From NCBI GenBank assembly GCA_020284085.1, contig JACEVL010000059.1:617001-681000 (forward strand): a DNA stretch of 64,000 nucleotides, given 5' to 3'. Below are positions 337 through 63,072 of this stretch, in pieces (within the stretch, counting starts at the first letter, position 1; every line of letters starts with the position of its first letter). This DNA is from Aporrectodea caliginosa (lineage: Eukaryota; Annelida; Clitellata; Crassiclitellata; Lumbricidae). The notes beneath the pieces were generated by a model. It searched no databases, was not told the DNA's origin, and saw only the letters and a program-made list of their open reading frames with translations. The position numbers were made by a program, and so were the translations under genes.

Positions 337-371
337 TATTTATAAGGTAAATTACCACATTAAAAAAGGTG
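337..371 (-). promoter_or_regulatory. Bipartite PSE/TATA-like motif (B)
   Basis: First listed copy of motif B. On the minus strand: core CACCTTTTTTA, spacer of exactly 16 bases, TATAAATA. The spacing fits the PSE-to-TATA distance known for vertebrate-type snRNA promoters; promoter activity is inferred only. Confidence 0.6.
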
Positions 372-454
372 TGTACGGTGTTGCTTTGCTTCACTACCGC
401 GGCTGTCCTTTGTCGTGTGATTGCAAATAGGTTGCTTCCATTATCGAAGATTTG

Positions 455-520
455 CCATATCAAAAATGAGTTTCATCTCCCTCCTCTGATACTCAGGCTT
501 GTAACTGACTCCACCTCCTT
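455..520 (-). repeat. Module A, diverged
   Basis: ATGAGTTTCATCTCCCTCCTC, then AGGCTTGTAACTGACTCCACC, each interrupted by short gaps from consensus. Confidence 0.5.
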
Positions 521-654
521 AAACCTGATTACTCGTTTTAAGTATTAATGGCATTGCAACGAAAAGTTGTGATTGGCAAAATTATATATAATTTATTTTG
601 ACATGTCTTAAAGTTTGTTTTCAACTTTGAGCAATGATCATTGTGTGTGATTTC

Positions 655-689
655 TATTTATAGAGCTAATCACCTCGTTTAAAAAGGTG
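655..689 (-). promoter_or_regulatory. Motif B
   Basis: Core CACCTTTTTAA, 16-base spacer, TATAAATA. Confidence 0.6.
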
Positions 690-769
690 CGTAAGTATTT
701 GCTCAGTATCACTGCCGGTCTTACATCTTTGTGTGATATCCGATTGTTTGCTTCTACTTAACAAAGTTG

Positions 770-865
770 TATCAAAACAGAGATGAGTTTCGTCGCCCTC
801 CTTCTATATCCATGCTTCGGACTGACACCACCTGGATATAAGATAGTGGTGGAGTCATCTTTCCT
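770..865 (-). repeat. Module A, CACCACCTGGATA variant
   Basis: GATGAGTTTCGTCGCCCTCC, CGGACTGACACCACC and GTGGTGGAGTC on the plus strand; same variant as 7310, 9575 and 61465. Confidence 0.7.
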
Positions 866-960
866 TAATAATTCAAAAGGATTCCAGGAGTTGAACGACC
901 CTTTGCGGGATGAATGGCTGATGATGACTGTTGAGAATACGTAAAATGTTGCGCTTCTTA

Positions 961-994
961 TATTTATAGTGCTTTCACAACATTAAAAGACGTG
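961..994 (-). promoter_or_regulatory. Motif B, weaker
   Basis: Core CACGTCTTTTA, 15-base spacer, TATAAATA. Confidence 0.45.
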
Positions 995-1074
995 TGAAGA
1001 AAGAAACAATTCCGCATCAAAATTTATATATGCAATAAATGAGTACAACAATTTCGTATCTTATCTTATCTTAT

Positions 1075-1440
1075 ACGGACATTTGTAAAGCGCCTCTCGA
1101 AGCAATACTGTTCAGAGGCGCTCTCAGCGTGACAGACCGGTGAAAATAAGGTCTTTAAGCAACGAAGAGATATAGGTGAGATTCCCTCGAGAATCCTACT
1201 CCGGAATGCCAGAGGAAGGTCAGACCGCAGTGAGGAACCCACTACAGTGAAAGCCCGGTGCTGGGATAAAGAAGTTCACGGCCTAGGTACGAGAAGATCA
1301 AGTCGGTCAGCAGAACGAAGAGGACAAAAAAGTGCAGATATTGGCTTACACATCAAGTCACAGAGATATTTAGGCGCTAAACCCTGCTGGGACTTAAAAA
1401 CCAAGAGCAATATCTTAGATTTGATTTGAGACAAACGGGG
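1075..1440 (-). mobile_element. CR1/L2-like LINE, 3' fragment
   Basis: The minus strand encodes a degraded C-terminal ORF2 tail with the family signature QQGLAPKYLCDLM, then a short 3' UTR ending AAGCGC and an AGATA-type tail (TATCTTATCTTATCT on the plus strand, 1057-1075). Copies lie at 9870-10190 and 61765-62130. Only the last ~100 codons remain, so it is a 5'-truncated copy and cannot move. The assignment rests on the GLAPxYL motif common to CR1/L2/Rex-type ORF2 C-termini. Confidence 0.7.
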
Positions 1441-1759
1441 AGCCAGTGTAGATCTACTAATCTGTAGTTCTCTCGTACTTTGCACCTTCGTTGAGATCCA
1501 CCTAGTGGCGCCATGTCAGTTTATAGTCAGGCACCCAGACGCTTCAAATGGAAACTCTACAGCATTCTTCCACATACAGGCCGACGTCGACATGATGCAG
1601 CTTAATGGTATTTATAAAGTAGCTTATAGCACGATGACTCATTCAATATTAGTTTTATGTTTAAAAAAACACCGCTTTGCTGTGCATTGGGTTAAAGACG
1701 CCATCGTTTACATAGGATGATACGAAGAATATCCAGATAACAAAGGTAAAAAATTGCCA

Positions 1760-1793
1760 TTTACATAGCATCGGACAAACTGCTTTAAAGGTG
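1760..1793 (-). promoter_or_regulatory. Motif B
   Basis: Core CACCTTTAAAG, 15-base spacer, weak TATA (TATGTAAA). Paralogue of the 62477 copy, whose TATA is intact. Confidence 0.5.
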
Positions 1794-1899
1794 TGTAAAA
1801 TGGGCAATTATTCAAAAGCGCATTCTCGCAGAGTCTTGACTTTCAGAGAGATTTTCGTAATGATAAACTCCGTAGCCATGGTAACGCCACCCAATTTAT

Positions 1900-2345
1900 A
1901 TAGGATGAGATCGCGTAGAGAAGAGTGATGCAGAGAGAGATAGACAAGCCAAGCACACAGACAGACATGCAGACGGACAAACAGACAGCTGAGAAAATGT
2001 AGAAATACGGGCAAAAGACAGAAAGAAAGCTAGACAGACAGACAGACAGACAGACAGAGATTTGAAGCAGTGAAGGAAACAGACAGATAGACGGAAACAT
2101 ATATAGAGACAAACAGCAAGGCAGGACTGAAGACAGACAGATAGGCAGAGATATACAGATAGATAGTCAGACATTATCACAGACAGACAGAGTGACAGAC
2201 AAACATTATATATAATATATATATATATGTTTGTCTGTGATTATATATATATATATATATATATATATATATATATATATATATATATATATATATATAT
2301 ATATATATATATATATATATATATTCTCTGTGATATTATTGTAAC
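1900..2345. repeat. GACAGACA-rich and AT-repeat stretch
   Basis: Degenerate CAGA repeats (1935-2200), then a palindrome-flanked TA run (about 2215-2325) with TTTGTCTGTGAT beside it. The same structure recurs at 63600-63950. No gene is seen. Confidence 0.85.
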
Positions 2346-2377
2346 ATACATATTATGTGTATAATATAATTATGATC

Positions 2378-61066: not shown

Positions 61067-61353
61067 TGTACGGTGTTGCTTTGCTTCACTACCGCGGCTG
61101 TCCTATGTCTTGTGTGACTGCATATAGGTTGCTTCCATTATCGAAGATTTGCCATATCAAAAATGAGTTTCATCTCCCTCCTCTGATACTCAGGCTTGTG
61201 ACTGACCCCACGTCCTTAAACCTGCTTACTCGTTATAAGTATTAATCGCATTGCAACGAAAAGTTGTGATTGGCAAAATTTTATATATAATTTATTTTGA
61301 CATGTCTTAAAGTTTGTTTTCAACTTTGAGCAATGATCATTGTGTGTGATTTC

Positions 61354-61388
61354 TATTTATAGAGCTAATCACCTCGTTTAAAAAGGTG
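61354..61388 (-). promoter_or_regulatory. Motif B
   Basis: Duplicate of 655-689. Confidence 0.6.
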
Positions 61389-61464
61389 CGTAAGGATTTG
61401 CTCAGTATCACTGCCGGTCTTACATCTTTGTGTGATATCCGATTGTTTGCTTCTACTTAACAAA

Positions 61465-61560
61465 GTTGTATCAAAACAGAGATGAGTTTTGTCGCCCTCC
61501 TTCTATATCCATGCTTCGGACTGACACCACCTGGATATAAGATAGTGGTGGAGTCATCTT
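61465..61560 (-). repeat. Module A, CACCACCTGGATA variant
   Basis: Duplicate of 770-865. Confidence 0.7.
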
Positions 61561-61659
61561 TCCTTAATAATTAAAATGGATTCCAGGAGTTGAACGACCC
61601 TTTGCGGGATGAATGGCTGATGATGACTGTTGAGAATACGTAAAATATTGCGCTTCTTA

Positions 61660-61693
61660 TATTTATAGTGCTTTGACAACCTTAAAAGACGTG
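61660..61693 (-). promoter_or_regulatory. Motif B, weaker
   Basis: Duplicate of 961-994. Confidence 0.45.
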
Positions 61694-61764
61694 TGAAGAA
61701 AGAAACAATTCCGCATCAAAATTTATATATGATATAAATGAGTACAACAATTTCATATCTTATC

Positions 61765-62130
61765 TTATATGGACATTTATAAAGCGCCTCTCGAAGCAAT
61801 ACTGTTCAGAAGCGCTCTCAGCGTGACAGACCGGTGAAAATAAGGTCTTTAAGCAACGAAGAGATATACGTGAGATTCCCTCGAGAATCCTACTCCGGAA
61901 TGCCAGAGGAAGGTCAGACCGCAGTGAGGAACCCACTACAGTGGAAGCCCGGTGCTGGGATAAAGAAGTTCGAGACCGAATTACGAGAAGATCAAGTCGG
62001 TCAGCAGAACAAGGGGAACAAGAAGAAATAGCAGATATTGGCTTGCACATCAAGTCGCAGAGATATTTAGGCGCTAAACCCTGCTGGGACTTAGTAACCA
62101 AAAACAAGACCTTATTATTTGATTTGAGAC
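61765..62130 (-). mobile_element. CR1/L2-like LINE, 3' fragment
   Basis: Duplicate of 1075-1440 and better preserved: the minus strand keeps about 100 open codons with QQGLAPKYLCDLM, VIRSRTSLSQHRASTVVGSS and LRCLKTLFS. 5'-truncated; inherited with the duplication. Confidence 0.75.
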
Positions 62131-62476
62131 AAAATCAAGAACTAGTGTAGATCTAATAATCTGCAGTTCCATCGTACCTTACACTTTCCAACTTATGGTG
62201 AAATATAACTTTATATTGAGACGTTCAAGACGTTCAAATGGAGGTTTTACAACGTTTTTCTACATACAGACAGACGTCGAAATATTGCAGTTAAATTGTT
62301 TTATAAAGTAGCTTTAGTAGTCAATTTTTAAAGAATCTTATCGCACGATGACTCAAGTAGTAGCCGTTTATGTTATTGAAAAACCACCGCTTGGCGTCGC
62401 ATTGTGTGGCTTACTGACGCCCTCGTACCAATCGAAGAGATATTTTAATACAACGATCACATAATTGTTTTTAGCC

Positions 62477-62509
62477 TATATAGCATTGGAGTGAACCTAT
62501 TTAAAGGTG
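62477..62509 (-). promoter_or_regulatory. Motif B
   Basis: Core CACCTTTAAAT, 16-base spacer, TATATAG. Confidence 0.55.
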
Positions 62510-62584
62510 TGTAAAATGTGCCATATTTTAATGCGCATTCTGACCAACAGTCCTGACTTTAACAGAGATTGTTGAAGATGTAAT

Positions 62585-62668
62585 CGCAAACTCAAAATTT
62601 TGTAAAGCGCTACTATTCAGCTAAGCGCAGAGCACCAGCTTATTCCCGTGAGCTGCGTCGCATCAGAG
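62585..62668 (+). repeat. Module D
   Basis: AAAGCGCTAC, GCGCAGAGCACCAGC, GAGCTGCGTC. Confidence 0.55.
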
Positions 62669-62904
62669 GGGTTGTCAAGAGAGATATGTCACCTGTTGAC
62701 AGAGATATCAAAGTGGAGACAAATAGCGTTCACGTTAAATTATGGAGTTAGCCAGTCACTGAATGAATCTGAATCCCGCGATTTAACGACATCTTATGCC
62801 ATCAAAGGCCGTTGACTTTGCGGCGCAAACCATAATGTAGCACTTACCAAATTACGACCTTCAAAACAATTAATTGTGTTAATCATGTTAAGGCTCTTCA
62901 GAAC

Positions 62905-62990
62905 AAACATTTAAGTAAGTAAGTAAGTAAGTATGGTCTTTATTACGCCATTTGCAAGATTATTGGTTTGAGCAGCTCTTATTGCTATTT
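62905..62990 (-). mobile_element. (TAAG)n LINE 3' tail, fragment
   Basis: AAGTAAGTAAGTAAGTAAGT, then GGTCTTTATTACGCC; only the tail and last bases of the 3' UTR remain. Confidence 0.55.
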
Positions 62991-63040
62991 ACACGAGAGA
63001 GATAGCTTGAGATTCTGAAACACGATATCAAGGTGTTTAA

Positions 63041-63072
63041 ATATAGACGTCCTTTACAGCGTTAAAAAGGTG
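63041..63072 (-). promoter_or_regulatory. Motif B
   Basis: Core CACCTTTTTAA, 16-base spacer, TATAT. Confidence 0.5.

Follow-up and report, generated by a model that had tools for sequence, protein, structure and literature searches.

Among described systems, newt satellite 2, a ribozyme-bearing, self-cleaving repeat whose internal promoter is of the small nuclear RNA (snRNA) type (PMC2220036 and PMC7229834; promoter from Coats et al. 1994, cited in PMC2220036), appears by analogy to be the closest precedent for the elements treated here. A review of ribozyme-bearing RNA circles describes plant and animal retrozymes both as seemingly promoterless (PMC7761336). Here, we analyze a 64-kb stretch of the Aporrectodea caliginosa genome (positions 617001–681000 of contig C58 in a 1.098-Gb assembly; 38% GC), hereafter the window, which harbors many copies of a two-part motif (labeled P) together with elements that resemble the twister ribozyme (labeled T). 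Judged from sequence comparisons, the P copies are probably snRNA-type promoters of noncoding, ribozyme-linked retroelements, arranged in the geometry of the host U1 promoters. Just 10 open reading frames (ORFs) of ≥120 codons are found in the window, in which ARAGORN finds no transfer RNA gene and Rfam no snRNA match.

The original prediction, made from the letters of the window alone, had described a bipartite repeated motif with a fixed and freely varying 16-base spacer. The motif is real: with left and right position weight matrices (PWMs) learned from the window alone, a cutoff score of >14 and two bases of play allowed, 65 P are counted, compared with 0.25 in simulated sequence (eight simulations). 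The left-box PWM alone matches 104 times, whereas 20 simulations average 34.2; of the 104 matches in the window, 35 have a TATA at one single offset, where ≈0.1 would be expected. Plain strings, counted against 100 dinucleotide shuffles, give 86 ACACC-type cores (mean in shuffles, 15.1), 22 of which have TATA at +27 (0.06 expected); none of the offsets +26 to +28 occurs more than once in any shuffle. The sharp peak of the CACC-to-TATA distance at 27 bp corresponds to the 16-base gap, so that this part of the prediction stands, but the spacing is not rigid, with neighboring plain-string offsets of 25 (1 core), 26 (6), 28 (4), 29 (17), 31 (4), and 33 (2). By our reading, the second peak at +29 is mostly a second register of TATATA.

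A profile of 46 P, left from 54 once near-copies were removed, reads TTANACACCTTTWWAA, a G-rich +12, then C and TATAWAWA at +26 to +34; the right box is thus a TATA box. Weak preferences at +12 (G in 25 of 46), +13, +18 (A in 31 of 46), +23, and +25 indicate that the spacer is mostly but not wholly free, and beyond +34 no position of this profile exceeds 0.25 bit (background, 0.05 bit). Genome-wide, the strict pattern CACCTTTTAAN{14,18}TATAA has 1158 matches versus 59 for a reversed control, and the peak that had been anticipated outside the window is sharp within the range of N covered (14–18): among the first 100 matches listed, all of which come from contigs C2 to C42, 64 have an N of 17, 22 of 16, 12 of 18, and 2 of 14. 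Only one match to this pattern lies inside the window, which indicates that it catches a small part of all P. All 16 coordinates named in the original prediction, where minus-strand copies were cited by their TATA end, are recovered, 15 of them above the cutoff. The principal P copies are as follows, with PWM scores.

337 to 376, minus strand: P, 337 of the original prediction, PSE-like box and TATA, 25.9.
655 to 694, minus strand: P, 655 of the original prediction, 28.2; twin at 61388.
960 to 999, minus strand: P, first in the chain 994P-856T-689P-535T-371P, 16.6.
7032 to 7071, plus strand: P, 26.8.
7194 to 7233, minus strand: P, 31.0.
9466 to 9813, minus strand: chain P(9808)-T(9670)-P(9500), from the P and T scans.
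10765 to 10804, minus strand: P, 26.3.
14105 to 14144, plus strand: P, 19.4.
15727 to 15766, plus strand: P, top score of all copies, 32.6.
25283 to 25322, minus strand: P, 32.2.
25535 to 25574, minus strand: P, predicted start near the 5′ end of the twister element at 25509 (P to T, 60 bp), 23.3.
29797 to 29836, plus strand: P, first in the same-strand series 29802/29955/30094, 28.1; the third, 30094, has a poor TATA and scores 9.8.
31227 to 31266, plus strand: P, family E, same-strand series 31232/31592/32166/32410, 31.0.
36122 to 36161, plus strand: P, twister copy 138 bp downstream, 32.0.
37385 to 37424, minus strand: P, 30.2.
40669 to 40708, plus strand: P, 32.0.
42863 to 42902, plus strand: weak P, 42868 of the original prediction, 10.7, under the cutoff of 14.
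46683 to 46722, plus strand: P, 23.4.
51472 to 51511, plus strand: P, duplicate of 31232, 29.3.
56653 to 56692, plus strand: P, 17.1.
57465 to 57504, minus strand: P, 21.3.
59214 to 59253, minus strand: P, twister element (59187) 61 bp downstream, 24.7.
62475 to 62514, minus strand: P, 22.9.
63038 to 63077, minus strand: P, last named in the original prediction, 29.9.

Two P face each other at 7037–7228 with predicted starts ≈77 bp apart, for which convergent transcription would be expected.

The window-trained left box recurs upstream of the host's own snRNA genes. For U1, 20 upstream stretches from 30 matches were analyzed; these genes are interrelated, with 13 of the 20 upstreams <60% identical in an ungapped greedy comparison. 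For U6, nine of 17 matches were used, that is, the eight with 115–118 bits and L039 (75.8 bits, similar upstream); of the eight left out, the six inspected (all but L044 and L045) have no such upstream. Averaged across the 20 U1 upstreams, the left-box score peaks at −56/−57; across the nine U6 upstreams, the peak is at −62. Taken singly, 13 of the 20 U1 promoters have their best match, with a positive score, at −56 or −57, and six of the nine U6 promoters have theirs at −62 (in 110 bases upstream; L039 at −64). U1 scores reach 17.6, compared with a median of −2.6 and a 99th percentile of 8.3 for the best match in random 110-base stretches. Because it peaks upstream of both U1 and U6, we identify the left box, by sequence, as the host's own proximal sequence element (PSE). 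The two-part protein–DNA contact proposed originally can thus be given putative names, PSE on the left and TATA box on the right.

Host U6 promoters (RNA polymerase III [Pol III] type 3) share with P the PSE-like CACC box and a TATA box, at −30 in seven of nine, but their CACC-to-TATA distance is 32 in six of nine, five above that of the P in the window. If the start is predicted 30 bp past the TATA box, as in host U6, then the CACC of P falls at −57, the same box at the same distance from the start as in the U1 promoters (RNA polymerase II [Pol II], PSE type). The full P score of 14 is passed by three U1 promoters (L049, L062, and L064), all at −57, and by none of the nine U6 promoters. P would accordingly combine U1-type (Pol II) geometry with a U6-style TATA box.

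A consensus search finds 41 T copies in the window, 28 of which reach the 5′ part, and the Rfam twister-P1 model (RF03160) gives 16 matches, 15 with E ≤0.16 and one with 0.8. In an alignment of 19 copies, the T likeness starts at the cleavage site of type-P1 twisters (between T and A) and spans ≈115 bases into a tail; the core is conserved, and 72% of cells are paired. A search of the repeats for hammerheads gave no Rfam hammerhead up to E = 1, and three pattern matches in the window, none of them clear. The principal T features are as follows.

7332 to 7402, minus strand: twister-P1 match, 169 bp upstream of the P at 7228, 43.8 bits.
25395 to 25509, minus strand: T element, 115 bp from the cleavage site, RF03160 51.1 bits at 25447–25514.
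43153 to 43219, plus strand: twister-P1 match, 45.1 bits.
45185 to 45302, plus strand: T element, RF03160 53.6 bits, with a 9/10 direct repeat ending at the cleavage site; the repeat score of 15 is not above the random control.
53265 to 53331, plus strand: top twister-P1 match of the window, 57 bits (gathering score, 67.2).
58200 to 58314, minus strand: T element, 5′-degenerate, end approximate, 13/14 direct repeat.

P and T are coupled by strand in the window. A same-strand P lies 40–210 bp upstream of 22 of the 41 T, compared with five on the opposite strand and a circular-shift null with a mean of 3.6 and a maximum of 11 (500 shifts); 100–260 bp downstream, a same-strand P is found for 13 of 41 (opposite strand, 0; null mean 3.3, maximum 9). 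With the four large duplicate blocks removed, these counts are 15 of 31 upstream (opposite, 4) and 10 of 31 downstream (opposite, 0), each against a null maximum of 7 in 1000 shifts, although smaller relatedness remains. The left box alone stands 15–37 bases upstream of seven of the 41 T (null mean 1.0, maximum 5). Some copies alternate in chains, as in 994P-856T-689P-535T-371P and 9808P-9670T-9500P-9324T-9163P, with P-to-P periods of 305–337 bp. The coupling is seen again in L004, one of eight genome loci fetched.

The T copy at 25509 is flanked by a perfect 12-bp direct repeat, one arm of which ends at the cleavage site while the other is found at +115, and 25509 is the only copy that stands out in this respect. 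The T tail ends ...ACACAGTGTCGTTAAAC and by eye is like the tails at 23388–23485, near a long interspersed nuclear element (LINE), and at 39345. From this tail likeness alone, a LINE may be proposed to supply the machinery.

16328 to 22572, plus strand: LINE, its ORFs encoding endonuclease, reverse transcriptase, and RNase H domains.

Its reverse transcriptase domain is spread over two ORFs, and the first LINE ORF has no Pfam match.

We favor a model in which each P consists of a PSE, the presumptive site of the SNAP complex (SNAPc), and a TATA box 27 bp downstream, with a predicted start ≈30 bp beyond the TATA. Pol II would be the likelier enzyme since P has the U1 geometry (CACC at −57) rather than that of U6 (−62). 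The short noncoding repeats that bear P would have multiplied in part as tandem units and in part, we think, by retroposition, near or along with the ≈115-bp twister element. In chains, transcription from P would run into the twister, which would cut the RNA and so set the 5′ end of the portion copied back. Noncoding repeats with P share the region with twister elements and in part may drive them.

Several observations weigh against this model. On the promoter side, seven of the 20 U1 upstreams have no positive best match at −56/−57, and in 17 of 20 the TATA score is negative at the P offset, counted from the best left-box match, so that U1 promoters as a group lack a P-type TATA. Pol II snRNA promoters do not usually have a strong TATA, which in vertebrates is associated with Pol III, as presented in PMC9652321. 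The predicted start shows no conserved base in the P profile. On the ribozyme side, none of the twister matches reaches the Rfam gathering score (best, 57 bits versus 67.2), covariation in the 19 sequences is weak and is equaled by 17 of 500 shuffles, and the 5′ strand of the twister P1 lies in flanking DNA. Direct repeats as a set are weak evidence for target-site duplications such as a SINE-like retroelement would have: among 40 T copies tested against 400 random positions, three exceed the 95th percentile (25509, 58314, and 30113), where two would be expected, and none the 99th. In the window, no P-containing chain has two twisters at Rfam E <0.01, and in a 200-kb genome sample described below, a P lies beside only one of five T, so that the coupling holds for the window cluster rather than genome-wide. 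Finally, the model leaves unexplained how retroposition would carry a 5′-flanking promoter.

The P copies sit on short, diverged, partly tandem repeats that fall into families with common flanks, including the same-strand series listed above. In seven recent duplicate pairs (3–7% flank divergence), 9 of 166 box positions have changed, compared with 7 of 105 in the spacer and 102 of 2321 in the flanks; in 11 older pairs, the changes are 20 of 253, 48 of 164, and 680 of 3293, respectively. These pairs were chosen by hand with both members recognized as P, which favors conserved boxes, especially among the older pairs. The young pairs show that the boxes are not protected in place, and the original view that this is not a decaying repeat has to be revised, since families share flanks and the boxes of recent pairs change about as fast as those flanks. 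Because boxes decay like flanks, their conservation would reflect selection that acts on active source copies and not on the individual P in place. Alignments that span P were also considered as a guide to the start boundary, and this use was rejected, as 43 of 70 end between +30 and +69 with no sharp peak.

Duplication at the DNA level has contributed as well. Large and diverged segmental duplications (28477–36409/48750–54182; 1–1853/60696–62570; 5219–6323/13101–14045/54859–55802) fill much of the window, which suggests that the cluster has also grown in this way, and the number of family-E units is unequal between two large duplicates of the region, so that unit number also changes in DNA. 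Class B copies (3433–3639 and 58466–58716) are homologous to the 13286 unit from a point within the PSE, directly after CACC; part of class B harbors the near-palindrome CACCTTTAAAATAGGTG. A conserved block recurs seven times (28322–28408, 8451–8537, 10947–11033, 30924–31010, 46822–46908, 51169–51255, and 62599–62685) at ≤86% identity, five of the seven upstream of a minus-strand P. We rejected it as coding, given pairwise differences that are even across codon positions (230, 186, and 197), and its consensus fold is weak and not convincing.

The window is unusually rich in both elements. The genome sample comprises 20 stretches, each 10 kb long and placed at round coordinates, from contigs named by the pattern-match listing, and is not strictly random; it holds nine P (five in one stretch), where ≈1 is expected by chance, and five T. 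With 65 P and 38 T, the latter at a cutoff of 60 applied to window and sample alike, the window is ≈23-fold denser in P and ≈24-fold denser in T, the P scoring rules being slightly different between the two counts. Scaled from this sample, the genome would hold roughly 40,000 P, with wide error. Same-strand P pairs 71–81 bp apart occur elsewhere in the genome (L002, 1501/1572; L006, 1422/1501; L007, 1420/1501). Scans of viral and genome collections gave no relatives elsewhere. The window also contains an interstitial (GGTTAG)n tract of 10.5 copies at 24645–24707, a TTAGGG-type telomere repeat, and two neighboring tandem repeats with a 32-bp period each (59372–59462 and 59692–59812).

The alternative that survives best, although we regard it as doubtful, is that these are twister retrozymes, that is, ≈300-bp tandem units with an internal promoter, cut to monomers, circularized, and spread via circular RNA. 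The alternating P-T-P-T chains, whose P-to-P periods are mostly 252–337 bp with one of 443, resemble the ≈300-bp low-GC tandem units described for animal hammerhead retrozymes (PMC7229834), and an internal promoter of this kind would account for its being carried along. Two same-strand pairs of twisters, both members with E <0.01, lie ≈260 bp (45185/45445) and 217 bp (44847/44630) apart, with no P between them. The chains are nonetheless diverged and short, adjacent units are as diverged as distant ones, those that contain P lack two well-matching twisters, and at least one twister element, 25509 with its own 12-bp repeat, looks separately inserted.

It is unlikely that P are U6-like (type 3) Pol III promoters of short noncoding transcripts. 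The combination of PSE and TATA is the one that vertebrates and insects use for Pol III (PMC9652321 and PMC9841428), and the host U6 genes themselves have it; the twister consensus lacks TTTT, with nine occurrences in 3587 bp across the 41 copies. The CACC-to-TATA distance of 27 in the window, rather than the 32 of most host U6 promoters, stands against this reading. Over the first 100 bp past the predicted start (+57 to +157), TTTT runs are as frequent as in the background (7.8 versus 7.5 per kb), which also counts against it, whereas their lower frequency from +117 to +217 (4.6 per kb) would favor it; they therefore do not decide the polymerase.

Still less probable, in our view, is a cluster of independent small-RNA genes like the Piwi-interacting RNA (piRNA) loci of nematodes, in which every unit would have a separate snRNA-like promoter and the product would vary freely. 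The snRNA-like motif and the strong clustering recall those loci (PMC6436959), and bodies do differ between P families. As that paper describes them, however, neither the Pol II snRNA genes nor the piRNA loci of the nematode studied have the TATA that is present here. The start-site signature is absent from the P profile, the boxes are unprotected in recent duplicates, many P share flanks, and some share repeat tails. We consider an ordinary gene-regulatory site, such as one for a T-box or ZEB-type factor next to a TATA promoter, very improbable: ACACCT resembles T-box half-sites, but neither the constant distance to TATA nor the agreement with positions upstream of U1 and U6 would be expected of it.

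If P are instead snRNA-type promoters of ribozyme-linked retroelements, as we favor, a repeat family with a host U1-type promoter beside a twister would explain how such elements get transcribed, and the five-base gap between U1-like and U6-like spacing in one genome would offer a direct test of polymerase choice. The clusters may also represent reuse of the snRNA machinery on a large scale outside nematodes. We put forward as a rather doubtful extension that snRNA-type mini-promoters, densely clustered and numbering in the tens of thousands, form a transcription platform of their own, coupling SNAPc to twister-cut noncoding RNAs, be they promoter-bearing twister retrozymes or non-nematode small-RNA genes. 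A search limited to an open-access library found no paper that joins twister repeats with an snRNA promoter.

Several described systems share part of this arrangement. Animal retrozymes of the non-long terminal repeat kind appear similar as short, low-GC, protein-free tandem units with a ribozyme (PMC7229834 and PMC7761336) but carry a type I hammerhead and, according to the review, seem promoterless (PMC7761336). RTE retrotransposons with a 5′ twister, mentioned there as in preparation, similarly have the element 5′ end at a truncated twister; the elements here differ in being only ≈115 bp long, with a tail like that near the RNase H LINE of the window. Trypanosomatid Pr77 is a retrotransposon promoter with a ribozyme that is bound by SNAP50 and TBP, as reported in PMC8190864; that ribozyme is HDV-like, the promoter is TATA-less, and the two overlap. 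Nematode type I piRNA loci are also clustered units with an snRNA-derived motif and are described as lacking the TATA (PMC6436959), their start-site signature in turn being absent here. Newt satellite 2 comes nearest in pairing a self-cleaving ribozyme with an snRNA-type promoter inside a repeat, and differs, as described, in carrying a hammerhead rather than a twister and in its organization as satellite arrays.

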